DNA of 13,806 nucleotides, from NCBI GenBank assembly GCA_934515035.1, contig CAKSXP010000024.1:1-13806 (forward strand), given 5' to 3'. The position numbers were made by a program, and so were the translations under genes. Numbering within the stretch: the stretch's first letter is position 1; every line of letters begins with the position of its first letter. The notes beneath the pieces are model-generated. The model was not told the DNA's origin and searched no databases. It saw nothing but the letters and a program-made list of their open reading frames with translations. Origin of the DNA: an uncultured Oscillospiraceae bacterium. GTDB taxonomy: Bacteria > Bacillota > Clostridia > Oscillospirales > Oscillospiraceae. Shown here one piece after another: positions 2-13,806 of this stretch.

Positions 2-595
2 GCCGCTCGGGACGGCTCGCCGCTGCGCGAATATTTCGGCGTGGATATCCGCGCGCTGCGGGACCGGTATTGCCGGGAGGGAAAGACCTTCATTGCGAAA
101 GCACAGCTGCCCGGCGAACTGCTGGACAGGCTTCGGGGCGGAGCCGCCGCGAAGCCCGAAGAGGGGCTTGTCGGGATGGAGACCGGTGTTATCGACCTGC
201 TGGCGCGGCTTCAGTATCATCACGCCGTGTCCGAAACGGACCGGCTGGTATACTATACCCGGTCGCAGGTGGAGATGGTGCGGCATATCGGGACGGTCAT
301 CGCCGGCGATCTCTCGCAGTGGCACACGGCGCAGGAATTTGCCGGGAGCTTCGGCGTCAGCGAAAGCAGCATCAAGAACTATTTTCGCGGCGTATACGGC
401 CAGAGCATCCCGCAATATACCCGTCAGCTGCGCCTGACGCGCGCTGCGGAACTGCTTGCCGCCGCGGAGCTTCCGGTGTTGGAGATCGCCGTGCAGGTGG
501 GGTATGAGAACCAGAGCAAGTTTTCCGCCGCGTTCCGCAAGGCGTTCGGGGTCTCGCCCCTGGAGTATCGCAGAAGACACAGACTGACCCGGTAA
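2..595 (+). CDS. AraC-family transcriptional regulator, 3' part (N-terminus outside window)
   Basis: The frame is open from base 2 to the TAA at 593-595, so the gene starts left of the window; the ATG-like start near base 41 (a GTG) lies inside the protein. About 197 residues are visible. The C-terminal ~100 residues are an AraC DNA-binding domain with two helix-turn-helix units: one around the WHTAQEFAGSFGVSESSIKN stretch, the second around LEIAVQVGYENQSKFSAAFR, ending with the family signature GVSPLEYRRRHR. The part before it aligns by eye with the complete AraC regulator at 4196-5182, including the shared pattern Y-[YF]-x-R-[ST]-QVE-x-V just before the DNA-binding domain, so the two are paralogues of the YbtA/PchR-like type. 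Such regulators usually sense a siderophore or similar ligand through the N-terminal half, which is mostly missing here. Its target is probably left of the window. It is convergent with the ABC operon and separated from it by a shared terminator. Confidence 0.9.
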   Translation, partial: AARDGSPLREYFGVDIRALRDRYCREGKTFIAKAQLPGELLDRLRGGAAAKPEEGLVGMETGVIDLLARLQYHHAVSETDRLVYYTRSQVEMVRHIGTVIAGDLSQWHTAQEFAGSFGVSESSIKNYFRGVYGQSIPQYTRQLRLTRAAELLAAAELPVLEIAVQVGYENQSKFSAAFRKAFGVSPLEYRRRHRLTR

Positions 596-683: not shown

Positions 684-2429
684 TTACAGTTTCCAGCCCT
701 CCGCCGCCTCGCGGATGGCGGTATAGCGCTTATACAGGCCGTCCTGCCGCACGAGCTCGTCGTGGGTGCCGCGCTCGGCGATGCGGCCGTCCTGTACGAC
801 GAGGATCTGGTCGGCGCTGCGGATGGTGGCCAGACGGTGGGCGATGGTGATGATGGTCTTGCCGCGCGTCAGCTCGGAGATGGCCTGCTGGATCAGGTGC
901 TCGTTTTCCGGGTCGATGCTGGCCGTGGCCTCGTCCAGAATGATGATGGGCGCGTTTTTGAGAATGGCGCGGGCAATGGAGATGCGCTGCTTCTCGCCGC
1001 CGGAGAGCGTGCCGCCGCCTTCGCCGACCACGGTGTCATAGCCGTCCGGCAGCGCCATGATGAAGTCGTGGCAGCGGGCTTTTTTCGCCGCGGCGATCAT
1101 CTCCTCCTCCGAGGCATCCGGTCTGCCGAACAGAAGATTCGCCCGGATCGTGTCGTTGAACAGATATACGTTCTGGAACACCATGGATATGTTGGACAGC
1201 AGGCTGTCACAGGTGAACTCGCGCAGATCGTGGCCGCCGACGGAGATGCTGCCGCTTTCGGGATCGTAAAAGCGCGCCAGCAGGCTGCATATCGTGGTCT
1301 TTCCGCTGCCGGAGGGACCGACGATGGCGGTGGAGGTCTTTTCCGGGATGGTGAAGCTCACGTCCTTCAGCACCGTGCGGGAGTCATAGCCGAAAGCAAC
1401 GTGGGAAAACTCGATGTCGAAATGCTCCAGCGGGATGTCCCTGCCGCCGGCGTCGATGAAGTTTTCGCTCCGCAGCATGTCCAGCTGGTCCATTGCGTCA
1501 TCGATGACGCCAAGGGTGTGCGCGCTGTCGCTGATGGGCTCCAGACTTGCGAAAATGCTGAACGAATAGAACACGAACATCAGCATGAAGGAAAAGCTCA
1601 TCTCCCCGTGCAGGCACTGGAGCGCCGCCGCCAGCGCAAGGCCCGCGCTGCCGCATTTCAGCGCCAGCAGGTGCAGCGCGTTGCCGGGAACATAGCCCCA
1701 TTCGATCTTCAGGTGGATATTTCTGCTGTCGCGGACGGCGCGCGTGACGGAGTCCATGGCCGCACCGCTTTTGCCGAAGGACTTGACCACCGCGAGCCCG
1801 CGGGCATATTCGAGGATGGCGCCGGTCATATCCCGGTTGGCCTGCGCCTCCACGGGCGCGTTGACGCGGCTGTAATGGGAGATGACGAGCAGACAGCAGA
1901 ACGAGAGCGCCGCGGCGGCCAGTGCGATGAGCGCCGTGACCGGACTGCACACGGCCAGCGCGATGAAGATGACGAGAAAGTTCAGATAGCCGCCGACGAA
2001 ATTATCGATCATGCGGATGCCCATGGTCTCCAGCGTGGAAAGGCCGGTGGTGATGGAGTTCAGGATGCTGCCGGTGCTGATCTGCTGGAAATAGCCCAGC
2101 GAAACGCGCTTGAGCGCGTCGCCGACGGCGAGCCGGTCGCGCGCCGTGAGCCGGTAGCTGATGGGCTCCTGCAAACAGGCGCGGAAATAATCAAAGAGGA
2201 AGCGCAGAAGCACCAGAACGACCTGAATGACGATCGTTTTCCATATCCATGACGCATCGAAGGCCGCGCCGCTTTGCCGGCTCTCGATCAGCTGTCCGAC
2301 GGTCCAGGCGGCCAGTGCCAGCGGCATTGCCGCAAAAATATGCGAAAAGAACGTCATGACAAAGCCGAGGTACAGCTTGCTTTTGAATTCGCCGCACCAG
2401 TCGATGATGCGCTTTACCGTTTTGAACAT
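684..2429 (-). CDS. ABC transporter half-transporter, fused permease and ATPase (YbtPQ/IrtAB-like), AraC-linked module, second subunit
   Basis: 581 residues, full length for a type IV (exporter-fold) half-transporter. The N-terminal ~320 residues form the membrane domain, with hydrophobic segments roughly at 20-46, 62-82, 145-163, 165-185, 252-272 and 278-296. The ATPase domain has Walker A GPSGSGKTT (371-379), Q-loop Q419, signature LSGGE (475-479), Walker B IIILDE (495-500) with the catalytic glutamate, and switch His 531. ATG is chosen because AAAGGAGG (2446-2439) sits 9 nt upstream, inside the end of the preceding gene; only 4 bp separate the two genes, so they are co-translated and very probably form a heterodimer. 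It resembles the gene at 7849-9579 most closely: both end in A-x-x-W-K-[LI]. YbtP/YbtQ and IrtA/IrtB import iron-siderophores despite the exporter fold. Import of a metallophore is an inference; export of a peptide or drug is the alternative. Confidence 0.9.
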   Translation of the reverse strand: MFKTVKRIIDWCGEFKSKLYLGFVMTFFSHIFAAMPLALAAWTVGQLIESRQSGAAFDASWIWKTIVIQVVLVLLRFLFDYFRACLQEPISYRLTARDRLAVGDALKRVSLGYFQQISTGSILNSITTGLSTLETMGIRMIDNFVGGYLNFLVIFIALAVCSPVTALIALAAAALSFCCLLVISHYSRVNAPVEAQANRDMTGAILEYARGLAVVKSFGKSGAAMDSVTRAVRDSRNIHLKIEWGYVPGNALHLLALKCGSAGLALAAALQCLHGEMSFSFMLMFVFYSFSIFASLEPISDSAHTLGVIDDAMDQLDMLRSENFIDAGGRDIPLEHFDIEFSHVAFGYDSRTVLKDVSFTIPEKTSTAIVGPSGSGKTTICSLLARFYDPESGSISVGGHDLREFTCDSLLSNISMVFQNVYLFNDTIRANLLFGRPDASEEEMIAAAKKARCHDFIMALPDGYDTVVGEGGGTLSGGEKQRISIARAILKNAPIIILDEATASIDPENEHLIQQAISELTRGKTIITIAHRLATIRSADQILVVQDGRIAERGTHDELVRQDGLYKRYTAIREAAEGWKL

Positions 2430-2433
2430 GGTC

Positions 2434-4206
2434 TCACGCCTCCTTTGCGGCGGTAGATACCGCCCAGCTTTTCGCGCCGATATGCGCCTGCCACATATCG
2501 CGGTAGAGCGGACAGGACTCCAGCAGCTCTTCCTGCCGGCCCTGTGCCGTGATCTCTCCGTTTTTCAGAACAACGATGTTGTCCGCGTTCCTGATGGTGG
2601 ACAGGCGGTGCGCGATGACGAGCAGGGTCCTGCCCTTTGTCAGCGCCGCGATGGAGCACTGTATCTTGTCCTCGTTTTCGGGATCGGTGAACGCGGTCGC
2701 CTCGTCCAGAATGACGATGGGCGCGTTTTTGAGTATCATGCGGGCGATGGCGATGCGCTGCTTTTCGCCGCCGGAGAGCCGCTTGCCCGCTTCGCCCGCC
2801 GGGGTGTCATAGCCCTGCGGCAGCTTTTCGATAAACTCCTCGCACTGCGCGGCTCTGGCCGCGGCTCTGACCTCCTCGTCCGTGGCGGCGGGGTTTCCCA
2901 GGCGGATGTTTTCCATCAGTGAGCAGCGGAACAGAAAGTTGTCCTGCGTCACAAAGCTGACGTATTCCGACAGCTGGGAAAGCGGCATATCCTTCACGTT
3001 CACGCCGCCAATGGTGACAGAGCCGTCCGTCACGTCCCAGAACCGGGCGATAAGCTTGGCGACGGTTGACTTGCCGCCGCCGGAGGGGCCGACCAGCGCG
3101 GTAAAGCTGCCCTCGGGCAGCGTCAGGCCGATGCCGTGCAGGACCTCGTCCTTTGCATTGCCGGTATAGGAAAAATGCACATTTTTCATTTCCACACCGG
3201 TGTGCCGTATCTCCGCGCGCTGCGCGGGCTCCGGAAGGGCCGGTATTTCCAGAAACTCCTCAAGGCTTTCCACCGTGAACTTGACCTGCCGCATGTTCTC
3301 GGAAAAAACCTCCAGCTTGGCAAGCGAGCCCACCATGGAGATGGACAGCATCACCGCGAGCGCCGCCTGCGGCCCGGTTATCGCCCCGCTGTTTGCCAGC
3401 GCGAGCGCCGCCGGCAGCGTGCCGATGAGCGTGGAGGGAAAGAGCGCAAAGCTCAGCTTCATGGTCACAAAGGTGCTTGTCAGCCACTTCACGACGAAGG
3501 TGCGGAAATTTGTTATCGCCCGGGCGTATTTTTCGTAGCTTACGCCCGCGCGGCCAAAGGCCTTGATGACTTCGATGCCCTCGATATACTCCACTATCGT
3601 GCTGTTCATCTCGCTGCTGGACCGGTCGTATTGCGCGAAGCTGCTGCCGCTGATCTTGAATGTCAGGCCCATGCAGACGAGCGACAGCGGAAAGGTCACC
3701 AGCGAAGCCAGCGCCAGACGCCAGTCGAGGCAGAGCAGGGCGATGATGCTGATGGCGGGAAGCACGATGTGCCCCGCGCCCTCGGGGATCATATGCGCCA
3801 GCGGCGGCTCCATGTTCTCGATCTTGTCCACCATCATGGTTTTGATCTCGCCGATGGAGCGGTTTTCCACATCGCCGAGCGGCGCGTGCAGAAAGCGATC
3901 GGCCAGACGCAGACGCAGACTTTCCAGAACGCTGTAAGCCATGGCGTGGGAAACGCCGGTGGACAGGCTGAACAGCAGTATCTTCACAGCGTGAGCCGCG
4001 AGCGCGAGCAGGCACCAGCTCACGACCCCGGCGACGTCCGCCGTGCCCGCTGCGAACAGGCATATCAGCCGGTACATGCAGTAAAACGGAGCCAGGCCGA
4101 GCACCACGCTCATCACGGACAGCGCAACGGACAGCGCAAGACGCCTGTTCTCCCCTTCGGCATAGGCGAACAGGGAGCGCATCCAGCTCTTTTTTTCAGA
4201 CTTCAT
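2434..4206 (-). CDS. ABC transporter half-transporter, fused permease and ATPase (YbtPQ/IrtAB-like), AraC-linked module, first subunit
   Basis: 590 residues. The membrane domain has hydrophobic segments roughly at 24-46, 62-84, 145-160, 166-184, 255-275 and 280-297. The ATPase domain has Walker A GPSGGGKST (373-381), Q-loop Q421, signature LSGGE (477-481), Walker B IVILDE (497-502), the D-loop region TDPENE and switch His 533. All catalytic residues are present, so this half is not a degenerate ATPase. The start overlaps the upstream AraC gene by 11 bp, with AAAGGGG (4221-4215) 8 nt before the ATG. The nearest relative in the window is the gene at 6110-7852: both carry a C-terminal CPLYR-[DE]-MWQAHIG segment and an early LAP-[FY] motif in the first membrane helix. 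No siderophore-interaction (SIP) domain precedes it, unlike mycobacterial IrtA but like YbtP/YbtQ. It should pair with the product of 684-2429 in the cytoplasmic membrane. Confidence 0.9.
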   Translation of the reverse strand: MKSEKKSWMRSLFAYAEGENRRLALSVALSVMSVVLGLAPFYCMYRLICLFAAGTADVAGVVSWCLLALAAHAVKILLFSLSTGVSHAMAYSVLESLRLRLADRFLHAPLGDVENRSIGEIKTMMVDKIENMEPPLAHMIPEGAGHIVLPAISIIALLCLDWRLALASLVTFPLSLVCMGLTFKISGSSFAQYDRSSSEMNSTIVEYIEGIEVIKAFGRAGVSYEKYARAITNFRTFVVKWLTSTFVTMKLSFALFPSTLIGTLPAALALANSGAITGPQAALAVMLSISMVGSLAKLEVFSENMRQVKFTVESLEEFLEIPALPEPAQRAEIRHTGVEMKNVHFSYTGNAKDEVLHGIGLTLPEGSFTALVGPSGGGKSTVAKLIARFWDVTDGSVTIGGVNVKDMPLSQLSEYVSFVTQDNFLFRCSLMENIRLGNPAATDEEVRAAARAAQCEEFIEKLPQGYDTPAGEAGKRLSGGEKQRIAIARMILKNAPIVILDEATAFTDPENEDKIQCSIAALTKGRTLLVIAHRLSTIRNADNIVVLKNGEITAQGRQEELLESCPLYRDMWQAHIGAKSWAVSTAAKEA

Positions 4207-5182
4207 GACGGATACCCCTTTCTCTCCGGTATTCCGACGGAGTAAGTTTCATGGTTTTTTTGAATGCCGCGGCAAATTTGCTGGCGCTGTCATAGCCCAC
4301 CATGCCGCCGATCTCGGCAATGCTTGCCTTTGCGTCGCTTATCAGCATTTCCGCCGCGCGGTTCATGCGGTAATCGGTCAGCCATGTGCCGATGGAACAG
4401 CCGTAGGCGGAGCGAAAACAGGTCTTCATTGCCGTCAGCGGCAGATCAAAGCGGCGCGAGAGCTCCTCCTGTGTGAAATTCTCGGAGATGTGCTCCGCCA
4501 GAAAATCGCGGACGGCCTTTACCTTCTCAACCTGAGTGCGGTAGAAATAGGGACGTTCTCCGTCCTCTTCCGGAATGCTGATCGTGTCCAGATACAGAAG
4601 CATTTCCAGTATCTTGACCTTAAAATAGGGAATACGGATAGTTTCCGGCACCCGGTACATTTCGCCGAAAATGTGCTCCATGGCGTCCACGCCGTGAACC
4701 ACCCTCGGATAGCCGCCCAGCTGCCAGCGGGCGATAATGCGCTCCGGCGTGGACGGAAAATTCCGTATCTCGTTGGGCAGCGTTTCCCGGACGGTGTCCA
4801 GGTCGAAGGCGACGGTCAGCCCGTGATAATGACAGGACGGAAAGTGAAAAACGCCGGTATGCTGCTTTCGAAGATCCAGCTTCATGTCTCCGGCTCCCGT
4901 GTATGCAACTGTGTTTCTGCCTGCGGCATATTCCATGCGCCCTTCGCGGCAGTGGTCAACGGCAAAAAGCCTGCGGCCGGTCACAAAGCTGCTCTCATAG
5001 TGCGCCATGTGGAAGTCGTTGAAGCTGAGCATGACGCCGGGAAACACGTCGTAAACGGTCATGGTCCCGTCGCCGCTCCCGTTCCGGAACTGCCACACCG
5101 CGCAGCCGTCGTTCTGCGCGAGAAGCCGGGCTCCCTGCGCCGAAAGCTCGTCGGCCGCGATCGTCATATCGGGCTCGCTCAT
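4196..5182 (-). CDS. AraC-family regulator (YbtA/PchR-like) of the adjacent ABC operon
   Basis: 328 residues, complete. Residues ~1-200 are a ligand-sensing region of the PchR/YbtA style, with a cysteine/histidine-containing DHCREGRMEY segment (76-85) and an HFPSCHYHG segment (113-121). Residues ~220-325 are the AraC DNA-binding domain, with helix-turn-helix one near FTQEELSRRFDLPLTAMKT (236-254), helix-turn-helix two near SIAEIGGMVGYDSASKFAAA (287-306), and the family ending LTPSEYRRERG. The ATG has AAAAGGAG (5200-5193) 10 nt upstream. The 3' end overlaps the first ABC gene by 11 bp, so regulator and transporter are one operon. In the YbtA and PchR systems the regulator activates transport genes when it binds the iron-loaded siderophore; the same logic is inferred here. 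It is a paralogue of the truncated AraC gene at the left edge. Confidence 0.9.
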   Translation of the reverse strand: MSEPDMTIAADELSAQGARLLAQNDGCAVWQFRNGSGDGTMTVYDVFPGVMLSFNDFHMAHYESSFVTGRRLFAVDHCREGRMEYAAGRNTVAYTGAGDMKLDLRKQHTGVFHFPSCHYHGLTVAFDLDTVRETLPNEIRNFPSTPERIIARWQLGGYPRVVHGVDAMEHIFGEMYRVPETIRIPYFKVKILEMLLYLDTISIPEEDGERPYFYRTQVEKVKAVRDFLAEHISENFTQEELSRRFDLPLTAMKTCFRSAYGCSIGTWLTDYRMNRAAEMLISDAKASIAEIGGMVGYDSASKFAAAFKKTMKLTPSEYRRERGIRHEV

Positions 5183-5235
5183 GCTGCGTCATCTCCTTTT
5201 TTCGGTCGATATCGTTTTTTGTACATCCGGCGGCC

Positions 5236-5241
5236 AGTATA
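5236..5241 (-). promoter_or_regulatory. Candidate extended -10 promoter for the AraC-ABC operon
   Basis: Read on the minus strand, TATACT is preceded by TG and one base (TGATATACT), an extended -10 element, about 55 nt before the AraC start codon. I see no good -35 box at 16-18 bp, which fits an extended -10 or an activator-dependent promoter. The call rests on the motif alone. Confidence 0.4.
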
Positions 5242-5285
5242 TCACAACATTGGAAAAGCGTCTGCACCGTTTGGACCGGAATGCT

Positions 5286-5318
5286 CCGTCCGGACAAAAT
5301 TATCCGTCGGCCGGACGG
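5286..5318. promoter_or_regulatory. Inverted repeat between divergent promoters, possible AraC site
   Basis: CCGTCCG (5286-5292) and CGGACGG (5312-5318) form a perfect 7-bp inverted repeat with a 19-bp spacer that includes the AT-rich AAAATTAT. It lies about 45-80 bp upstream of the AraC operon's candidate -10 and just upstream of the tetR -35. That position suits an activator site for the AraC protein, but GC-rich repeats arise by chance in this genome, so the role is a guess. Confidence 0.3.
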
Positions 5319-5333
5319 CGGCGCAAAAGGGGC

Positions 5334-5361
5334 TTGACAAATCCGAAAAGTCTTATATAAT
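5334..5361 (+). promoter_or_regulatory. Consensus sigma-70/SigA promoter of the tetR gene
   Basis: A perfect -35 TTGACA (5334-5339) and a perfect -10 TATAAT (5356-5361) are separated by 16 bp. This predicts a transcript start near 5368, about 38 nt before the preferred TTG start. It is the strongest promoter in the window and its -10 abuts the TetR operator, so it should be tightly repressible. Confidence 0.85.
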
Positions 5362-5392
5362 TCATAACGCAGTTATGAAACGGTGTTATGAA
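5361..5392 (+). promoter_or_regulatory. TetR operator: palindrome plus a third half-site
   Basis: TTCATAAC-GCA-GTTATGAA (5361-5379) is a perfect 8-bp inverted repeat covering the last base of the -10 and the predicted transcription start. The half-site GTTATGAA recurs at 5385-5392 in direct orientation, 13 bp downstream. Position and symmetry are typical of an autorepressing TetR operator; that the adjacent TetR protein binds it is inferred. Confidence 0.72.
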
Positions 5393-5393
5393 T

Positions 5394-5408
5394 GGAGATG
5401 AGACCTTG
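5394..5408 (+). promoter_or_regulatory. Ribosome binding site that selects the TTG start of tetR
   Basis: GGAG (5394-5397), then 8 nt, then TTG (5406-5408). This moves the start six codons downstream of the first in-frame ATG. Confidence 0.7.
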
Positions 5409-6032
5409 GCCAAACAGATCGAAGGCGTGTCGGAGCGTATTCTGACCTGCGCAAAAGCGGAGTTTCTGGACAAGGGCTATACGGACGCCTCGCTGCGGAG
5501 CATCGCGGCGGCGGCCGGGACCAGCACGAACTCCATCTATGTCCGCTTCGGCGACAAAGAAGGCCTGTTCTCTGCCATCGTGGAGCCGGTGCTGAACGCA
5601 ATGACGGAGCGTTTTCTCAAGATCCAGGAAGAGTTCTGCCGCATGGGCCGCGCGGAACAGGCCGCCCATATGGCGGAGTATGCCGACGGCGGCACCATGG
5701 AGCTGGTCGGCTATATGTATGACCACCTGGACGAATTCCGGCTCCTGCTGGATGCGTCCTACGGCACGCGGTTCCATAACTTCGTGGACGAGCTGGTGCG
5801 CATCGAGGTGGAATACACCTACAAATATATGGCGGCGGTGGGGTGCCCCGCCCGTCTGGGCGACGCTCTGACGGAAAAGCTGCTGCACATCGTCACGACC
5901 TCCCGGTTTGAAAGCATTTTTGAGGTCATCCGGCACGGCATGAGCCGGGAGGAGGCCGCGGAATACATCGAGCTTTTAAGCCGGTATCACCGCACGGGCT
6001 TTTTTGCCGTGTTCGGCACACAGCAGGCATAA
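5406..6032 (+). CDS. TetR-family regulator of the adjacent ABC pair (TTG start)
   Basis: 208 residues from TTG 5406. The N-terminal helix-turn-helix is typical of TetR: the first helix holds SERILTCAKAEFLDKGY, followed by ASLRSIAAAAGTSTNSIY and VRFGDKEGLFSAIV (to about residue 60). The rest is an alpha-helical ligand-binding and dimer domain without a motif I can assign to a ligand. I prefer TTG 5406 because GGAG (5394-5397) lies 8 nt upstream of it. The in-frame ATG at 5388 has no ribosome binding site and lies inside an operator half-site. The gene probably represses its own promoter and the ABC pair beginning 77 bp downstream. TTAA-free codon use, with no ATA among 11 Ile codons, contrasts with the LysR genes further right. 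Confidence 0.88.
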   Translation: MAKQIEGVSERILTCAKAEFLDKGYTDASLRSIAAAAGTSTNSIYVRFGDKEGLFSAIVEPVLNAMTERFLKIQEEFCRMGRAEQAAHMAEYADGGTMELVGYMYDHLDEFRLLLDASYGTRFHNFVDELVRIEVEYTYKYMAAVGCPARLGDALTEKLLHIVTTSRFESIFEVIRHGMSREEAAEYIELLSRYHRTGFFAVFGTQQA

Positions 6033-6040
6033 AAGGACAG

Positions 6041-6064
6041 GCTGCCGTTTCCGGCAGCTTTCCC
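6041..6064 (+). terminator. Short hairpin between tetR and the ABC genes, weak terminator or attenuator
   Basis: GCTGCCG (6041-6047) pairs with CGGCAGC (6052-6058) around a 4-nt loop and is followed by TTTCCCT, a poor U-tract. It starts 9 bp after the tetR stop. It may partly terminate the tetR transcript and so lower expression of the ABC genes, or it may only stabilise the message. Confidence 0.45.
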
Positions 6065-6075
6065 TATGCATATTA

Positions 6076-6091
6076 GTTAGTTCACTCTAAC
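6076..6091. promoter_or_regulatory. Inverted repeat just upstream of the first plus-strand ABC gene, possible second operator
   Basis: GTTAG-TTCACT-CTAAC is a 5-bp perfect inverted repeat with a 6-bp spacer, sitting directly before the AAGGAGG ribosome binding site (6095-6101). Half-sites of the GTTA/TAAC type also occur in the tetR operator, although arranged differently. It could be an operator for the ABC genes; no convincing -35/-10 pair accompanies it. Confidence 0.4.
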
Positions 6092-6109
6092 CAGAAGGAG
6101 GAATTTTCC

Positions 6110-7852
6110 ATGAAAGAACAAAGCCCCGTCCAGCGGATCTGGGAGCTGGGCAGGGAACAGCACGGCAGCCTCATCGCCGCCGTGGTCATGGCCGTTGTCG
6201 GCGTGGTGTGCGGCTTGGCGCCGTACTTCGCCGCGGCGAAGATCATCGCCATGCTGCTGGCGGGGGAGAGCGTGCTGCGCGCCTATCTCCCGTGGCTGGC
6301 CACGGCCCTGGCCGGTTATCTGCTGCGCACGCTGCTCTATAACGGCGCGCTGTCCGTCTCCCACAAGGCGACGTTCAGCATTCTGAAAACCATTCGCCAG
6401 AAGCTGCTGGCCAAGCTGCCGCGTCTGCCTCTGGGCACGGTGCTGGACACCTCGAGCGGAAAGCTGAAGCAGACCATCGTCGATCAGGTGGACAGCATGG
6501 AGACCACGCTGGCGCACCTCTTTCCGGAGATGACCGCCAACGTCACGGCGCCGATGCTGACGCTCATCTTCCTGTTCGTTCTGGACTGGCGTCTGGCGCT
6601 GCTGTCGCTCGCTGTGTTCCCCGTGGCGTTTTTCTTTATGATGACGGTCATGGGCGGCTACGCCAGGGATTACGCCGGCGCGGTGCAGGCCACGAACGAG
6701 ATGAGCGGTGCCATGATCGAGTACATCGGCGGCATTGAGGTCATCAAGGCCTTCAATCAGGGCAAGAACTCCTACGCCCGGCTGGTGGACAAGGTGCGCG
6801 CCAACGCACAGTATTATTATGACTGGATGCGCCGCAGCCAGCTCGGAATGTCCATGGCCTATGCCTTTTTCCCCGCGCAGATGCTGACCGTTCTGCCGCT
6901 CGGCTGGGTGTTCTATACCCACGGCACGCTGACGGCGGAAAGCTTCATCACGGTCATCATCCTGTCGCTCGGAATGTCCGCGCCCATCGTGGCGGCTTTC
7001 AATTTCGTGGACACGCTGGCGCAGGTCGGCACAACAGTGGGGCAGGTGGACGAAATTCTGAACGCGGAGGAGCAGACCCACAGCGAAACGCCGGTCGCTT
7101 TTGCAGACCATACCATTGAGATCAAGGATGTTTCCTTCGGCTATCACGACGGTCAGGAAATCCTCCACAACGTTTCCCTGACCATTCCGCAAGGTAAAAT
7201 GACCGCGCTCGTCGGCCCCTCCGGCAGCGGAAAATCGACCATTGCCAAGCTCGTCGCGGGCTTCTGGGACGTGAAAAGCGGCACTGTCACCATGGGCGGC
7301 CACGACCTGAAGGATATTCCGCTCACGCAGCTTTACGACCAGGTGGCCTTCGTGTCGCAGGATAACTACCTCTTTGACGACACCGTGCGGGAGAATATCC
7401 GCATGGGGCGGATGAACGCCACGGACGCCGAGGTGGAGGCTGCGGCGCAGGCCGCCGGCTGCGGCAGCTTTATCGGCAATCTGGAAAACGGTCTTGACAC
7501 CATGGTCGGCGGGGGCGGCGCGCACCTCTCCGGCGGCGAACGCCAGCGCATTGCCATTGCACGGGCCATTCTGAAGGACGCGCCCATCATCGTGCTGGAC
7601 GAGGCCACGGCCTACATTGACCCGGAGAACGAGGCGGTCATCCAGCAGGCGGTGGCAAGGCTGGTGGCGGACAAGACGGTCATCGTGATCGCGCACAGGC
7701 TTTCCACCATCACAGGAGCGGACAATATCGCCGTGGTGCAGGACGGCCGCATCGCCGCGCAGGGCAGGCACGAGGCGCTGCTGGAGCGCTGCCCGCTATA
7801 TCGGGAAATGTGGCAGGCGCACATCGGCACAAAGGACGGTGAGACGGTATGA
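6110..7852 (+). CDS. ABC transporter half-transporter, fused permease and ATPase (YbtPQ/IrtAB-like), TetR-linked module, first subunit
   Basis: 580 residues. Membrane segments lie roughly at 21-50, 58-78, 145-158, 162-180, 250-270 and 278-298. ATPase motifs are Walker A GPSGSGKST (369-377), Q-loop Q417, signature LSGGE (473-477), Walker B IIVLDE (493-498), the D-loop region IDPENE and switch His 529. AAGGAGG (6095-6101) lies 8 nt before the ATG. It is the paralogue of the minus-strand gene 2434-4206: both share the EYI-x-GIEVIKAF segment near residue 205-215 and the C-terminal CPLYR-[DE]-MWQAHIG. The stop overlaps the next start by 4 bp (ATGA), indicating translational coupling with a heterodimer partner. 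Substrate import of the YbtPQ/IrtAB kind is inferred from family resemblance; the substrate is unknown and need not match that of the AraC-linked module. Confidence 0.9.
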   Translation: MKEQSPVQRIWELGREQHGSLIAAVVMAVVGVVCGLAPYFAAAKIIAMLLAGESVLRAYLPWLATALAGYLLRTLLYNGALSVSHKATFSILKTIRQKLLAKLPRLPLGTVLDTSSGKLKQTIVDQVDSMETTLAHLFPEMTANVTAPMLTLIFLFVLDWRLALLSLAVFPVAFFFMMTVMGGYARDYAGAVQATNEMSGAMIEYIGGIEVIKAFNQGKNSYARLVDKVRANAQYYYDWMRRSQLGMSMAYAFFPAQMLTVLPLGWVFYTHGTLTAESFITVIILSLGMSAPIVAAFNFVDTLAQVGTTVGQVDEILNAEEQTHSETPVAFADHTIEIKDVSFGYHDGQEILHNVSLTIPQGKMTALVGPSGSGKSTIAKLVAGFWDVKSGTVTMGGHDLKDIPLTQLYDQVAFVSQDNYLFDDTVRENIRMGRMNATDAEVEAAAQAAGCGSFIGNLENGLDTMVGGGGAHLSGGERQRIAIARAILKDAPIIVLDEATAYIDPENEAVIQQAVARLVADKTVIVIAHRLSTITGADNIAVVQDGRIAAQGRHEALLERCPLYREMWQAHIGTKDGETV

Positions 7853-9579
7853 TCGAAGCATTCAGAAAAATCTGGCAGTTTGCCGGAGGCGAGAGGAAAA
7901 ACATCAACAAATCCGTCGTGGTCAGCTTTCTGGGCGCCGTATTGCAGATGTTTCAGCTTGCGGCCATTTATCTGGTAATCCGGGCGCTGATGCTCGGGGC
8001 CCAGGGTGGAAAAACGGCGTGGCTCGCGCTGGGGTTTGAGCTTGTCAGCATTTTCGGCGGCGCGGTGGCCAGCAGCTATTCCAAGATGTATCAGACCCAC
8101 GCGGGCTACTTTATGGCGGCGGACCGCCGCATTGCCATCGCCGACCGCTTAAAGCGCGTGCCTATGGGCTTTTTCAACGACAACAGCACCGGCCAGCTCT
8201 CCGGCGTCTGCACCACTGTGGTCAGCAGCATTGAGAGCATGGTGCCGATGGTGCTGGTGAACATTCTCGGCGGCCTGATCACCACGGCAGTATTCGCGCT
8301 CGTTATTCTGATTTTTGACTGGCGCATCGGGCTCATCACGCTGGCGGGCATACTGATCTATCTCTGCGTGGTGTCCGCAATGGAGAAAAAGTCCGCCGTC
8401 ATCGCCGCCGACACGCAGCGCTCCCAGACCGATCTGGTCGAGGCCGTGCTGGAGACCGTGCAGGGCATGAGCGTTGTCAAATCCTTCAACCTTACCGGCA
8501 AGGGCGATAAAAAATTGCAGGACGCGCTGGAGCACAACCGCAAAGCCAATCTGCGCGTGGAGCGTGTGATGACGCCCTATACCGCCGCGCAGGAGGCTGT
8601 TCTGCAAATTGCGGGCGTCGGCATGATGCTCGCGGCGGTCGCGCTCTGGATCGGCGGCAGCATGACGCTGCCTAACGCGCTGATGGTGCTGGTGATGTCC
8701 TTCCTGGTGTTCAGCCAGATCAAACTGTTCGGCATGGGCGTCTCCATGCTGCGTCTGGCGGCCGCGGCCATCGACCGCACCGTGGAGACGGAGCAGATGC
8801 CGCAGATGGACGAAAACGGAAAGGCTGTCACGCCGGAGCGCCACGACATCGTCTTTGACCATGTGGACTTTTCCTACGAGAAAAAGCCCATTCTCCGCGA
8901 CGTCAGCGTGACACTGCCCGACCGGACCACCACCGCCATCGTCGGCCCCTCCGGCAGCGGAAAAACGACCTTCTGCAGCCTTGTCGCCCGCTTCTGGGAT
9001 GTGGACGGCGGCAGCGTCAGGATCGGCGGCACGGACGTGCGGGACTATACGCTCGAGTCGCTCATGAGCCAGATCAGCATGGTGTTTCAGGACGTGTATC
9101 TCTTTGCCGACACCATTGAGAACAACATCAAATTCGGCTGTCCGGACGCAACGCACGAGCAGGTGGCCGAGGCGGCGCGCCGCGCCTGCTGCGACGACTT
9201 CATCGAGGCCCTGCCGGACGGCTATGACACCGTCATCGGCGAGGGCGGCGCATCGCTCTCCGGCGGTGAAAAGCAGCGCATTTCGATCGCACGCGCGCTG
9301 CTGAAGGACGCGCCGATCATCATTCTGGACGAGGCCACGGCAAATGTCGATCCGGAGAACGAGGACCGCCTGCAAAAGGCGATTGAAGCACTGACCCACG
9401 AAAAAACGGTCCTGATGATCGCCCACCGGCTCAAAACCGTCCGCAATGCAGACCAAATCCTTGTGCTGGACGGCGGCAGCATCATCCAGCAGGGCACCCA
9501 CGCCGAACTGGCGGCGCAGGAGGGCGTCTACCGGAACTTCATCGCGGAGCGGCAGCAGGCCGCCGACTGGAAGATCTGA
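7849..9579 (+). CDS. ABC transporter half-transporter, fused permease and ATPase (YbtPQ/IrtAB-like), TetR-linked module, second subunit
   Basis: 576 residues. Membrane segments lie roughly at 21-48, 57-76, 132-155, 158-175, 247-270 and 275-294. ATPase motifs are Walker A GPSGSGKTT (366-374), Q-loop Q414, signature LSGGE (470-474), Walker B IIILDE (490-495), the D-loop region VDPENE and switch His 526. The ATG overlaps the stop of the upstream ABC gene by 4 bp. It is the paralogue of 684-2429: both have LKRV[SP]-x-G[YF]F near residue 105, VVKSF near 210, SMVFQ[ND]VYLF at the Q-loop and a C-terminal W-K-[LI] tail. Both ATP sites of the predicted heterodimer look intact, unlike many heterodimeric exporters with one degenerate site. 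Confidence 0.9.
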   Translation: MIEAFRKIWQFAGGERKNINKSVVVSFLGAVLQMFQLAAIYLVIRALMLGAQGGKTAWLALGFELVSIFGGAVASSYSKMYQTHAGYFMAADRRIAIADRLKRVPMGFFNDNSTGQLSGVCTTVVSSIESMVPMVLVNILGGLITTAVFALVILIFDWRIGLITLAGILIYLCVVSAMEKKSAVIAADTQRSQTDLVEAVLETVQGMSVVKSFNLTGKGDKKLQDALEHNRKANLRVERVMTPYTAAQEAVLQIAGVGMMLAAVALWIGGSMTLPNALMVLVMSFLVFSQIKLFGMGVSMLRLAAAAIDRTVETEQMPQMDENGKAVTPERHDIVFDHVDFSYEKKPILRDVSVTLPDRTTTAIVGPSGSGKTTFCSLVARFWDVDGGSVRIGGTDVRDYTLESLMSQISMVFQDVYLFADTIENNIKFGCPDATHEQVAEAARRACCDDFIEALPDGYDTVIGEGGASLSGGEKQRISIARALLKDAPIIILDEATANVDPENEDRLQKAIEALTHEKTVLMIAHRLKTVRNADQILVLDGGSIIQQGTHAELAAQEGVYRNFIAERQQAADWKI

Positions 9580-9695: not shown

Positions 9696-10163
9696 TCAGT
9701 TCAAACGCCAGATGCCGTAATTGAGGTATGCGGCAAAGACGCACCACAGAAGATATGAGATCTGAAGCAGTGCTGCGGCGTGATCCGTCCTGTAAAAAAT
9801 GAAGATCATGATAACGATCGCCGCGATAAGAAGGAGCAGCCATATGAAGGCGAAAAAGTATGCCTGAAGGCCGAAAAACCACGCGCTCCAGAAAACGTTT
9901 ATAATAAGCTGTACGGCATAGATGAGCAGGGCGTCGCTGCGTTCGCGCGAACCCGTTATCCAGACGCGGGCCATTCCGACACCCATCAGGATGAACAATA
10001 TCGTCCATACGATCGGAAACACGGCCTTGGCGGGAGCGAGCGCCGGTTTGGCGGCCGCGTCGAATGCCGGCATGCCTTTGTATGAGAATATGGCGCCTAT
10101 GCCTCCGGCCGCGAGGGATATCAGGATAAAGACGATATAGGGAACAGACTTTCTGCGCTTCAT
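9696..10163 (-). CDS. tspO: TspO/MBR-family membrane protein
   Basis: 155 residues, the normal length for the family, with five predicted membrane helices (about 7-27, 48-68, 78-98, 101-123, 130-150). Family motifs are visible: KPALAP followed by FPIVWTILFILMG (39-61), the Q-x-x-x-N-x-FWSAWFF segment of helix three (85-97), and SYLLWCVFAAYLN (136-148). TspO proteins (translocator protein, formerly peripheral benzodiazepine receptor) bind porphyrins and other tetrapyrroles or sterols in the membrane; in bacteria they act in stress or tetrapyrrole-linked control. The function here is not established. AGGTGA (10176-10171) lies 7 nt before the ATG. The gene is divergent from a LysR gene with a 140-bp gap, the usual layout for LysR control of a neighbour. 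I found no strong promoter for it in that gap. Confidence 0.9.
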   Translation of the reverse strand: MKRRKSVPYIVFILISLAAGGIGAIFSYKGMPAFDAAAKPALAPAKAVFPIVWTILFILMGVGMARVWITGSRERSDALLIYAVQLIINVFWSAWFFGLQAYFFAFIWLLLLIAAIVIMIFIFYRTDHAAALLQISYLLWCVFAAYLNYGIWRLN

Positions 10164-10285: not shown

Positions 10286-10306
10286 GGGAGGAGGTGCGCA
10301 GGTTTG
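10286..10306 (+). promoter_or_regulatory. Strong ribosome binding site that selects a TTG start
   Basis: GGGAGGAGG (10286-10294) lies 8-9 nt before TTG 10304-10306, which is the only start that keeps the whole LysR helix-turn-helix. Confidence 0.75.
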
Positions 10307-11203
10307 ACCGTTAACAGTATAAACGCCTTTCTGAGGATAGTTGAAAAGGGAAGCATTGCGGAAGCGGCCAGAGAGAGCTTTATGAGTCCGCAGTCGTTCT
10401 GGAAGTATCTGTCCAACCTCGAAGACGAACTCAATATGAAGCTTTTTACCCGCAGCGGACGGACGCTCACTCTTTCGCCCGCCGGCAGAGTGTGGTATGA
10501 ATACTTCAAAAACCAGAAGGAGAACAGGGAAGCGCTTATCGGCAGGCTGCGCACGGAGGCGGAGGAGAGCGCGGGAAAGGGCGTCCTCCGGCTGGGCATC
10601 GCGCAGAATGTGTGGATGTGTCCGGAGATAACGGAGACGATACAGGCATACAACGCGCTGGAAGGCGTGCGCGCAATGGATATACATATCGCAACGGCGC
10701 CTGTCCTGGCGGATATGCTCGATCTTGGCGGGATAGACGCCGCGATAACGCTGAACTATCCGGCAACGACCAGACCGAGCAGCGAAACTGTGCTCCGGAC
10801 GGACGAATATGTCATACTTGCCTCGCGTGAGCACCCGCTGGTGACCGGCGGCGCGCCCGCCGGGGAGTTTGCCGGGGAGGAGTTTCTGATCGGGCTTGAC
10901 GGAGACGGGTTCAGCCCGCTCGAGGCAAGGGTGCTGTTTTCCGGCTTTTTCCGCCGGGCGACGGGGCTGACGCCCCGCGTCAGAGTGCTCAGAAACACGT
11001 CCTCTGCGATATGCGAGACCAGGCTTGGCAATGGCCTGATGTTCATAAACGGGTTCGACCAGCTTGCTATCAGCCCGTATTTTGCAAAGATAAAGGTCGG
11101 CGGGGAAAGCTCGCTCGTGTTCCGGCGGCAAAAGGAGACCAGCGATACCGGGCGCATCCTGGAGCTGCTGCGGAAGGCATATTCAAAGGGGGATGAAGCA
11201 TGA
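10304..11203 (+). CDS. LysR-type transcriptional regulator, first of a tandem pair
   Basis: 299 residues from a TTG start. Residues ~1-65 form the winged helix-turn-helix: INAFLRIVEKGSIAEAAR, then MSPQSFWKYLSNLEDELNMK, then LFTRSGRTLTLSPAGRVWYE. Residues ~90-295 form the two-lobed inducer-binding domain, starting near VLRLGIAQN. The recognition helix carries SFWKYLSNLE where most family members have an A-[VI]-S-x-x-[IL]-x-x-LE pattern, so the DNA target may be unusual. It is divergent from the tspO-like gene and overlaps the next LysR gene by 4 bp. The inducer is unknown. Ile codons include 11 ATA out of 18, very different from the ABC/TetR region. Confidence 0.9.
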   Translation: MTVNSINAFLRIVEKGSIAEAARESFMSPQSFWKYLSNLEDELNMKLFTRSGRTLTLSPAGRVWYEYFKNQKENREALIGRLRTEAEESAGKGVLRLGIAQNVWMCPEITETIQAYNALEGVRAMDIHIATAPVLADMLDLGGIDAAITLNYPATTRPSSETVLRTDEYVILASREHPLVTGGAPAGEFAGEEFLIGLDGDGFSPLEARVLFSGFFRRATGLTPRVRVLRNTSSAICETRLGNGLMFINGFDQLAISPYFAKIKVGGESSLVFRRQKETSDTGRILELLRKAYSKGDEA

Positions 11204-12132
11204 CGGACGCGCTGACTGCGAGCTTTCTGTTTTCCGCGAGGAGCCGTTCGTTTTACAATGCCTCCAGAAAGCTTGGAATAACGCCGCAGGCTGTGAGTAA
11301 AAACATTAAAAAGCTCGAAAAAGAGATCGGCTTTGCTCTTTTTGAGGACAGGATGGGCGAACCGGTGCTGACGGCGCAGGGGCAGCGGTATATGGAGTTC
11401 CTTATAGCGGACGACAGACGATTCAACTGGACGATGGACAACGCTCACCGTATCGATTCACCGAACGAGAGAGTGATCCGCGTCGGCGCATATTCGGAGA
11501 TGTTCCTCTCGGAGACGTTCTATGCCGTGCTGAAAGGGCAGAGGGACGCGAAGATATCCTGCCGGTGCTACGAGCCGGAGTCGATGAAATTCGAGCTGAT
11601 GCAGAAGGAACTGGATCTCGTTATCCTTGACCGGCGCGACGCGGAGGATGAGAGGCTCACTTCGAAAAGATTCATAGCGTTTCCGATGGTGCTGGCCGTG
11701 TCAAGACCGCTGGCGCGCCGGGCCGGGGCGTCGTCCGCGGCGGATCTTGCGGATATGCCGGTATATGTGGTCGAGGGCATCCTGCCCGGTATCGGAGAGC
11801 CGGACGGCAACAGGCTCTTCTGTTCACGGTTTGCGGGTCTCGGCCTGCGGCCGGAGAACATAAGGGCGGTGCCGACGGTGGAGGAGGTCGAGTCGTGCCT
11901 GATGCTTGAACGGGGCGTTTCGATCTGCGATATATCCAGCCGTCTGGCGGTCTGCCCCGTGTTCGATATTTTCCCGACGGGCGATACGGTCGAGACCCGG
12001 CTTTGCTGCCGCAGGGACGAGGAAAACGACGCGGCGATCCTGTCTGTTATGAGAGAACTGACCGAATGCTCCGACCGGATATTGAAGGAGATAGTCGAGG
12101 CCGGAAACAGAACGGAATATGAACCGTATTGA
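11200..12132 (+). CDS. LysR-type transcriptional regulator, second of a tandem pair
   Basis: 310 residues. The N-terminal helix-turn-helix is clear: FLFSARSRSFYNASRKLGIT, then PQAVSKNIKKLEKEIGFALF, then a wing ending LTAQGQRYMEFL. The inducer-binding domain follows from about residue 90 (VIRVGAYSEMF). The ATG overlaps the stop of the preceding LysR gene by 4 bp, and AAAGGGGG (11185-11192) lies 7 nt before it, so the two regulators are made together. The two proteins are only distantly alike, which argues against a recent duplication. The neighbouring targets could be the tspO-like gene upstream or the convergent SnoaL-like genes downstream. About 8 of 18 Ile codons are ATA. Confidence 0.9.
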   Translation: MTDALTASFLFSARSRSFYNASRKLGITPQAVSKNIKKLEKEIGFALFEDRMGEPVLTAQGQRYMEFLIADDRRFNWTMDNAHRIDSPNERVIRVGAYSEMFLSETFYAVLKGQRDAKISCRCYEPESMKFELMQKELDLVILDRRDAEDERLTSKRFIAFPMVLAVSRPLARRAGASSAADLADMPVYVVEGILPGIGEPDGNRLFCSRFAGLGLRPENIRAVPTVEEVESCLMLERGVSICDISSRLAVCPVFDIFPTGDTVETRLCCRRDEENDAAILSVMRELTECSDRILKEIVEAGNRTEYEPY

Positions 12133-12225: not shown

Positions 12226-13047
12226 TTATTCGGGCTGCTTTGTGTATGTGTTGTCGTTGTCCATCGTTTTGTACGGCACCGGCCAGGGAACGGTGTCCTG
12301 AACGGTCTGGAACAGGGAATACTCATAATGCAGCGGGCCGGGGTCGGACAGACGCAGCATGCCGCGGATGTTGGGCAGATCGTCGTCCTCGCGCTTTACC
12401 TCGGTCTGGCTGCCGTCCTCCTCGGTGGAGGGTCCGGCGGGCGGTCCCATCTGAGGGCGCAGTCCGGGTTCTTTTGCGTACAGGTATTCGTCCCTGCCGA
12501 CGTTGGAGCAGTCAAAGTCGCCGCCGATATCGGGGCAGACCTGTTCGTGGATATAGCGCCATTCGCCGTCCTCATAGCGGAAGTCGGAGCCGTAGCGCTC
12601 CCAGAGGGAACTGCCCCAGTATTTCCCGTTGGAGTTGGGCGCGCAGAACAGAACGCCGGGCGTCAGGAAAAAGCCGCGCGCTGTCTGACCGTCCTCCGCG
12701 ACCTCGATGATATCCGTTGCCAGCGTGTGGAAGGCGACCTCGCTCAGCGAGCGGAAGTCCGTCAGATATGACGCCTCGGGCACGAGGTTGAAGATGTTGC
12801 CGTAGTTTGCGATGCCGCGCCAGTTATAGGTCGTTACGCTGTTGTACCAGACCTCTTCAAAGCCGCGCATACGGCCGAAGCCGTGGGCCCAGGATATGTC
12901 GTCGGCGCGTGACCAGATCTCGTCCCATTCCTCCTTGCAGCGGGTCCCGCCATGAAGATAGGAGTGGCGCGCGTGGAGAGACTCTGCTGCAAGACCGCCC
13001 TCCGCGCGCTGGACGCGTTCCTCAAGAGTCAGATGCTTCATGTTCAT
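12226..13047 (-). CDS. SnoaL-like / NTF2-fold protein with acidic Pro-rich linker and C-terminal tail
   Basis: 273 residues. Residues ~10-185 look like a SnoaL/NTF2-like cone fold: an N-terminal helix region with ARHSY and DEIW, then strands with AEDGQTARG (117-125) and YEDGEWRYIHE (158-168). This superfamily holds dehydratases, isomerases, hydrolases and non-catalytic binding proteins, including bile-acid dehydratase BaiE, scytalone dehydratase and SnoaL cyclase. I cannot pick the reaction. Residues ~195-225 form an acidic, Pro/Gly-rich linker, and the end carries VPWPVPYKTM followed by NTYT. The ATG at 13047 has AGGGGGAG (13063-13056) 8 nt upstream, overlapping the stop of the preceding gene; the next ATG two codons later is less well spaced. 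It is the paralogue and probable partner of the upstream gene. Confidence 0.75.
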   Translation of the reverse strand: MNMKHLTLEERVQRAEGGLAAESLHARHSYLHGGTRCKEEWDEIWSRADDISWAHGFGRMRGFEEVWYNSVTTYNWRGIANYGNIFNLVPEASYLTDFRSLSEVAFHTLATDIIEVAEDGQTARGFFLTPGVLFCAPNSNGKYWGSSLWERYGSDFRYEDGEWRYIHEQVCPDIGGDFDCSNVGRDEYLYAKEPGLRPQMGPPAGPSTEEDGSQTEVKREDDDLPNIRGMLRLSDPGPLHYEYSLFQTVQDTVPWPVPYKTMDNDNTYTKQPE

Positions 13048-13062
13048 AATGTGTGCTCCCCC

Positions 13063-13806
13063 TTAGTCTTCATAGTCCGGATGACCCTCCGGCCCATAGC
13101 TTATCTCCCCGGAGAAACGGAAGTATTCCTGCGGCAGGAAGGGATAATCATCGCTCCAGTTGAGCATTCCGTTGTGGGTCAGCATTTCGATATCGCCCCT
13201 GCCGAATTCGACGGCGGCGGCGTTGTCCTCCGGCGCCAGACGTGTCGGTATGTCGTTGACGCTTCCGCCCGGGGCGACGGAAAAGTCGTTGGAATCGACC
13301 AGATGCCAGATCTTCCACTCCCCGTTTTCCTTGACAAAGTCGGCGGCTATCTTGCCGTTGAACCACCGGCAGTCCGCCGTTTTGCCGGAGCGGGCGATGG
13401 ATTCCTGACCGATGCTGTACCAGATGCCCTTGGCTGTCTGTCCGTCGCCGGACAGAACGACCAGCGGCGTGTTCAGCGGGCGGGATATCATGCAGCCGAA
13501 GCCGAGGTTATCCTCGCTGTATTCCACCTCCGGATGAGTGCTGCAATATTCCCGGAGGGCTTCCATCATGCGCTCGTGATGCCGCACGACATAGTAATTG
13601 CTGATGGAGTCCATGCCGACATAATAGCCCCAGTTGGAGCCGAAGGAAGCGGTGGCGCGGTGTTCGGGCTCGGCGACCCAGAAATCGTTCAGCTCCGCGC
13701 GGCGGTCGTTGTTTGCGATGTAAAAGCTGCGGCGGCTCATCAGATCCTTGACCTGCTCCATGTCCCATACGCGCTCCACCAGCTCGTCATCAGTGAAAAA
13801 TGCTTT
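13063..13806 (-). CDS. SnoaL-like / NTF2-fold protein, 5' end outside window
   Basis: At least 247 residues are visible; the frame is open to the right edge, so the true start lies beyond 13806. The GTG at 13779 is internal, since the residues before it (TDDELVERVWDMEQVKDL) read like normal protein. The core matches the downstream gene by eye: RRSFY with N-DFW versus ARHSY with DEIW, GDGQTAKG versus EDGQTARG, and ENGEWKIWH versus EDGEWRYIH. The C-terminal extension ends in YPFLPQEYFRF followed by ISYGP. SnoaL-like proteins with this layout may act as dehydratase, isomerase or ligand-binding subunits. Only 15 bp separate its stop from the next start, so the pair is co-transcribed from a promoter right of the window. 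The reaction is unknown. Confidence 0.75.
   Translation of the reverse strand, partial: KAFFTDDELVERVWDMEQVKDLMSRRSFYIANNDRRAELNDFWVAEPEHRATASFGSNWGYYVGMDSISNYYVVRHHERMMEALREYCSTHPEVEYSEDNLGFGCMISRPLNTPLVVLSGDGQTAKGIWYSIGQESIARSGKTADCRWFNGKIAADFVKENGEWKIWHLVDSNDFSVAPGGSVNDIPTRLAPEDNAAAVEFGRGDIEMLTHNGMLNWSDDYPFLPQEYFRFSGEISYGPEGHPDYED

Follow-up and report, generated by a model that had tools for sequence, protein, structure and literature searches.

What do two neighbouring transporter modules of a Clostridium, judged by its nearest relatives probably from gut or rumen, carry, in which direction, and what turns them on? The question is raised by a stretch of 13,806 nucleotides from an uncultured Oscillospiraceae bacterium (contig CAKSXP010000024.1), here called the window. 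Two modules, each with the order regulator, half-transporter A, half-transporter B, are transcribed apart. On the minus strand are genes for an AraC-family regulator (4196..5182; identified by Pfam and by BLAST against relatives), A1 (2434..4206) and B1 (684..2429). On the plus strand are genes for a TetR-family regulator (5406..6032), A2 (6110..7852) and B2 (7849..9579). We consider it fairly probable that the modules encode two metallophore transporters of the YbtPQ/IrtAB lineage, that both pairs import, and that A2B2 is under an iron box of the EqbA type.

Open reading frames (ORFs) and Pfam matches confirmed an earlier interpretation made from the letters alone (the sequence-only reading), which had recognised both regulator-A-B modules, their shared motifs and a 223-bp control region. 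All four half-transporters combine ABC_membrane and ABC_tran domains (ABC, ATP-binding cassette). The motif CPLYR[DE]MWQAHIG is present in both A subunits; SMVFQ[ND]VYLF and a WK[LI] end are present in both B subunits. Identity is 41–43% between A1 and A2, 40% between B1 and B2, and 32–37% between A and B subunits, far above chance. The araC and A1 genes overlap by 11 bp, and A2 and B2 by 4 bp. The longest ORF for the TetR protein begins at 5388. We took the TTG at 5406 as the start codon, which gives the 208-residue form listed in the protein database. Hence, the control region is 223 bp long.

To which lineage do the pairs belong? Among half-transporters in the Protein Data Bank (PDB), the best match is YbtP for A1 (315 bits) and A2 (298 bits), and YbtQ for B2 (302 bits). 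Two-halved chains of the P-glycoprotein type outscore all PDB half-transporters matched to the window subunits. Trees were made with FastTree (113 rows) and IQ-TREE (69 of those 113 rows). The rows were pairs from related genomes and from plasmid records, YbtP, YbtQ, IrtA and exporters, the last being represented in IQ-TREE by MsbA, MdlA/B, CydC/D and eight subunits from related genomes. IrtB was left out; a Streptomyces B subunit, for which IrtB is the best half-transporter match, stood in for it. All four window subunits, YbtP, YbtQ, IrtA and the pairs from siderophore loci formed one clade of 56 rows (support 99/98), with the exporters outside. In IQ-TREE, both A subunits lay on the YbtP/IrtA branch (27 rows, 100/99). 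The B rows fell on several well-supported branches, not one, with the window B subunits among YbtQ-type rows; IQ-TREE issued a long-branch warning that included YbtQ and the Streptomyces B subunit. FastTree and IQ-TREE concurred on the main split, and the approximately unbiased (AU) test rejected a tree in which 13 siderophore references were split from the other 56 rows, the clostridial-type pairs and exporters (p = 5e-5). Thus, the proposed YbtPQ/IrtAB lineage was borne out by both trees and the AU test. The outcomes that the sequence-only reading had named as contradicting it, A or B subunits in unrelated clades or all four with exporters, were not seen. Judged by their sequences, A1B1 and A2B2 are two members of this known transporter lineage.

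Could the pairs instead be common multidrug exporters of the heterodimeric kind, controlled by AraC and TetR? They share the fold, and regulators of these two families are common for drug pumps. Furthermore, each protein scores best in NCBIfam against MsbA or MsbA-related export models, although none of the 25 models listed per protein reaches its cut-off. The ATP sites point elsewhere. Each window subunit has the A-loop Tyr, Walker A, the Q-loop Gln, LSGGE, the catalytic Glu and the switch His. Conversely, Asp replaces the Glu in six exporter subunits of our set, namely MdlA and five subunits from related genomes, and in three of the six Gln also replaces the His; such degenerate sites are found in the first subunits of heterodimeric exporters of related genomes, but not in the window pairs. 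Canonical sites in all four subunits exclude the asymmetric exporter type (TM287/288) but not symmetric exporters such as MsbA. The same canonical motifs are published for YbtPQ (PMC10967856). Given also the tree, the AU test and the iron box before A2 described next, multidrug export is very improbable.

The leader of A2 contains a perfect GTTAG-N6-CTAAC palindrome, GTTAGTTCACTCTAAC (6076..6091). This element lies between tetR and A2, and ends 18 bp before the A2 start codon. It is the single match in the window, where no other was found even with one mismatch (0.07 expected). The palindrome is the core of the operator bound by EqbA, from the equibactin locus of S. equi. That operator is reported as GTTAGATGTATCTAAC at the centre of a 36-bp palindrome; it was required for gel-shift binding and is described as unlike other iron boxes (PMC3672683). 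EqbA is reported to be a DtxR-like repressor that binds better with Fe2+ or Zn2+ and, to a smaller extent, with Mn2+ (PMC3672683). The window does not match the outer arms of the 36-bp EqbA palindrome. On this likeness, we take the window element as a candidate operator of the same kind as EqbA's.

The same element occurs in relatives, before TetR-type A2 genes, ECF (energy-coupling factor) operons and an araC gene. An RNA hairpin at the box was considered and set aside; the half-sites are fixed by the search pattern and the six middle bases vary between loci, which speaks rather for a DNA operator. In five related genomes (G001, G002, G003, G005 and G006), the counts are 6, 22, 19, 8 and 12 sites. 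This amounts to 67 sites, compared with 3 for the reversed pattern. In these genomes, a perfect site lies no more than 4.5 kb upstream of 19 of the 25 A-type genes (rows with E < 1e-100; 0.44 expected from density). Likewise, 4 of 11 feoB genes (rows with E < 1e-50) have a site within 800 bp upstream (0.03 expected), and 6 of 12 DtxR-like genes have one within 3 kb (0.25 expected). Sites also precede FeoA, flavodoxin and ZIP transporter genes in related genomes. DtxR-like genes were found in all nine related genomes. We suggest, tentatively and with slightly less than even confidence, that a broad group of gut and rumen Clostridia uses GTTAG-N6-CTAAC as its general iron box, with DtxR repressors of an EqbA-like branch reading it and with FeoAB, flavodoxin and islands of importer pairs under its control. 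Among the open-licence titles and abstract openings that were listed, none mentions an EqbA-type box in Clostridia; the box sequence itself was not a search term. The EqbA-type element, as a possible iron box for gut Clostridia, is a more novel outcome than the transporter pairs.

What might the pairs carry? YbtPQ and IrtAB, the characterised members of the clade, are reported to import, and to carry siderophores (PMC8386196, PMC10967856, PMC10246721). We opened ten plasmid regions of 25 listed matches (449 records), chosen for organism diversity. Six of them (Neorhizobium, Bartonella, Chroococcidiopsis, Undibacterium, Rhodovulum and Streptomyces) have genes for a siderophore/iron-complex TonB-dependent receptor, or for a siderophore non-ribosomal peptide synthetase (NRPS) or salicylate synthase, a few genes from the pair. 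In a seventh, from Anaerococcus, a protein with an NRPS-type condensation domain is encoded nearby, as is an ABC importer of the nickel/oligopeptide type. No siderophore-type gene was seen near the pair in the regions from Prevotella and S. aureus, and the Subdoligranulum record is without annotation. These annotated neighbours, and the cargo of YbtPQ and IrtAB, argue against heme or another tetrapyrrole as the ligand. Heme would be in keeping with the TspO gene that adjoins B2, TspO being a porphyrin-binding family, and an ECF transporter is reported to scavenge heme in S. lugdunensis (PMC7299338). However, BLAST found no TspO homologue among the ORFs of 17 loci and 16 regions around relatives' pairs. 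Hence, the heme reading drawn from TspO was rejected, and we regard a tetrapyrrole ligand as improbable.

In relatives, the pairs are often clustered into islands. One contig of Merdimonas faecis (G005) carries five A-type genes within ~35 kb, and another contig carries three. ECF genes (Trep_Strep, CbiQ and a double ATPase) precede two of the pairs in this genome, with DtxR- or Rrf2-type regulators close by. In nine genomes reached via related loci, 14 of 16 Trep_Strep matches are beside A-type pairs. We also counted 60 genomes of one family, G005 included (7 of the 30 PF09605 rows). The count used 30 of 33 PF09605 rows, three under the cut-off being left out, and 53 of 65 A-type rows; the 12 weakest, mostly second subunits, were omitted, so that 28 genomes rather than 30 are represented. 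Within this family, 24 of 30 Trep_Strep matches are no more than 4.1 kb from an A-type gene. An A-type gene is present in 17 of the 18 genomes with Trep_Strep, compared with 28 of 60 overall (Fisher p = 1e-6). The association is reminiscent of the equibactin locus with its genes for an ECF-like importer. ATC hydrolase was considered as a further partner, for thiazoline opening, and dropped; in the 60 genomes, 3 of 34 matches over the cut-off are within 10 kb of an A-type gene. Two ATC hydrolase genes, possibly for a thiazoline-opening enzyme, do lie within an island of pairs or are accompanied by a box (L049:3114-3824 and L134:3063-3848). At a further locus, a P-type (E1-E2) ATPase gene (L053:16418-18301) is located between two TetR-A-B modules.

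In which direction do the pairs work? They could be iron-regulated exporters of an apo-siderophore or other metallophore, with import left to ECF transporters or FeoB. In S. equi, deletion of eqbKL is reported not to have lifted the iron-overload phenotype of an eqbA mutant, and the medium was twofold less active; deletion of the ECF-like eqbHIJ lifted the phenotype and lowered iron accumulation, and the authors suggested that EqbKL may export (PMC3672683). EqbKL is the one such pair tested next to an ECF-like importer. In addition, many relatives keep the pair beside a Trep_Strep ECF transporter, and an iron box suits secretion as well as uptake. Conversely, the effect reported for EqbKL was twofold, and in the tree the window-type pairs are grouped with subunits of two transporters proven to import. 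Siderophore-synthesis genes were recognised neither in the window nor among 30 scanned neighbour genes of relatives, many island genes being unscanned. Because of this grouping, and because no synthesis genes were recognised, import of a metal-siderophore seems likelier than export for the window pairs, and we consider export unlikely.

The eqbKL results weigh against metallophore import under iron control, and they are not alone in doing so. In the PDB, B1 matches SAV1866 (276 bits) slightly better than IrtB and YbtQ (263 each). Neither the window nor IrtA conserves, as a set, the gate residues published for YbtPQ, and we dropped them as a mark of the ligand because IrtA does not conserve them either. 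The AraC protein matches YbtA in the DNA-binding domain only, with an unlike sensor part, and its gene has no iron box within one mismatch in the leader. No NRPS, ECF transporter or DtxR gene was recognised in the window. In the five genomes, the perfect box is missing at 6 of 25 A-type genes and at 7 of 11 feoB genes; G005 and G006 have no perfect box at any of their four feoB genes. Finally, sites precede genes for enolase, pyruvate formate-lyase, fructose-bisphosphate aldolase and phosphate acetyltransferase; iron may steer central metabolism too, given boxes at such genes.

Import of metallophores remains the reading that we prefer, and it suggests the following scheme. A1B1 and A2B2 would each be a heterodimeric ABC transporter with the exporter (type IV) fold and two working ATP sites. 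Each would most likely carry an iron-chelate, probably a siderophore from another microbe, across the single membrane. Transport would proceed without a binding protein; no gene for a substrate-binding protein was recognised within the 13.8-kb window. When iron is replete, an EqbA-like repressor of the DtxR family, bound at the palindrome before A2, would shut off A2B2; iron shortage would turn A2B2 on. For A1B1, AraC is probably a ligand-dependent activator, in the way that YbtA activates ybtPQ. TetR would keep its own level low and may add control by a ligand. The two uptake routes of the sequence-only reading are, on this scheme, a plausible description of the locus.

The control elements between the modules bear on the AraC and TetR parts of this scheme. 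AraC orthologues precede A1-type genes in relatives (39–55% identity over most of the length). Since its match to YbtA is confined to the DNA-binding part, we rejected the window AraC as a YbtA orthologue. Upstream of araC is an inverted repeat, CCGTCCGG-N17-CCGGACGG (5286..5318), which might be the AraC site. The tetR gene has a perfect σ70 consensus promoter, TTGACA-16-TATAAT (5334..5361, plus strand); a scan at a threshold of 9/12 found this one hit, which scores 12/12, against 0.5 expected. A palindrome with 15-nt arms (87%) starts at the end of the tetR −10 element (5360..5393) and is a candidate TetR operator. By eye, similar repeats precede the TetR genes of loci L006, L008, L010, L016 and L053, but not L015. 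The position at the −10 element of tetR's own promoter fits autorepression.

Does the locus pair an activator with a repressor? The sequence-only reading had proposed such opposite control logic, with AraC activating one module and TetR repressing the other. We found no support for this as stated. The A2 leader has the EqbA-type box and the TetR palindrome is at the promoter of tetR itself. Moreover, in L001, which carries the closest relative of A1, an iron box with one mismatch (6285-6300) lies 22 bp before the A1 match (0.04 expected), and BLAST found no AraC homologue on this 8.2-kb contig. The leader of the araC orthologue at L002 also has an iron box. On account of the A2 box, the TetR palindrome and the L001 box, control of both lineages by iron is no less likely than an activator set against a repressor. 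Probably, at least A2B2 is under iron control, with AraC and TetR as added inputs.

How old is the doubling? In the tree, A1 and B1 of the window group with modules of Ruminococcus RGIG4311 and Roseburia RGIG9039. A2 groups with Faecousia and Merdimonas modules, and B2 with Faecousia and a second Roseburia module, then Merdimonas. Whether through descent or transfer, each window module has nearer kin in other genera than in the module beside it, which rules out recent local duplication. Paralogy of A1 with A2 and of B1 with B2 is expected for any two pairs of the clade, and is no evidence of recent duplication. Hence, of the suggestion that an ancestral pair was duplicated, it holds that one pair split into two lineages, but the split is old and not local. 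The further idea of cross-assembled heterodimers gained no support. Over 34 pairs, A and B distances mirror each other (r = 0.963, with 0 of 2000 permutations as high), a correlation to which shared ancestry contributes, and nearest neighbours concur for A and B in 21 of the 34. Among 150 genomes of the family to which the nearest relative, G001, belongs, an A1 match at E <= 1e-170 was found only in G001 (best eight candidates per genome), so that close A1 orthologues are rare in that family.

Other genes surround the modules. The C-terminal part of a third AraC-family regulator (2-595, plus strand), cut by the window edge, is convergent with B1. The TspO/MBR family gene (9696-10163, minus strand) is convergent with B2. 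Two different LysR-type regulators follow in tandem (10304-11203 and 11200-12132, plus strand), their ends overlapping. The neighbouring genes at 12226-13047 and 13063-13779 (minus strand) encode proteins with ~20% mutual identity; one is SnoaL-like and the other has no Pfam match. In relatives, the central-metabolism boxes are at L135, L142, L154, L130, L149 and L129, with an enolase-like protein at three loci, one of them Pfam-scanned. Boxes at L122, L125, L136 and L145 lie beside proteins that look alike by eye, and the one scanned belongs to the leucine carboxyl methyltransferase (LCM) family.

To our knowledge, iron sensing and uptake in gut Clostridia have been little studied. A short, searchable operator linking importer pairs, ECF transporters and FeoAB would predict candidate iron-regulated genes from sequence, and the box before one pump suggests how such gut bacteria switch on iron scavenging. 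If GTTAG-N6-CTAAC is indeed a general iron box, the islands, with up to five exporter-fold pairs in 35 kb and often a Trep_Strep ECF transporter, would be a stockpile of systems for taking up foreign siderophores. The twin modules of the window would then be one small example with two extra ligand sensors.

How does the locus compare with known systems? It most resembles, in the order taken here, YbtPQ, IrtAB and the equibactin locus. YbtPQ, the yersiniabactin importer, also has an AraC gene beside the pair, the AraC-type ybtA being divergent from ybtPQ. The window A subunits fall on the YbtP side and the B subunits with YbtQ-type rows, and the canonical ATP sites are shared. Conversely, YbtP and YbtQ are on long end branches (1.6–1.7) of the tree. 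The window also differs in its gate residues and AraC sensor, in having no recognised synthesis genes, and in having two modules and an EqbA-type box. IrtA, of the mycobactin importer IrtAB, is in the A branch, and IrtAB matches A1, A2 and B2 over most of their length; unlike IrtAB, the window proteins have only ABC membrane and ATPase domains, with no reductase domain of the IrtA type, and form two separate modules. The equibactin locus, eqbA-N, has a YbtPQ-like pair, EqbKL, and an operator core, GTTAG-N6-CTAAC, like that of the window (PMC3672683). Some window relatives resemble it further, having a Trep_Strep ECF transporter and a DtxR-like gene beside the pair. Trep_Strep ECF transporters adjoin A-type pairs in relatives, whereas none was recognised in the window. 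Unlike the equibactin locus, the window has AraC and TetR regulators and no recognised NRPS, ECF or DtxR gene. Proven importers (YbtPQ and IrtAB) and a possible exporter (EqbKL) share this type of pair, and it is between them that the locus poses the question of direction.

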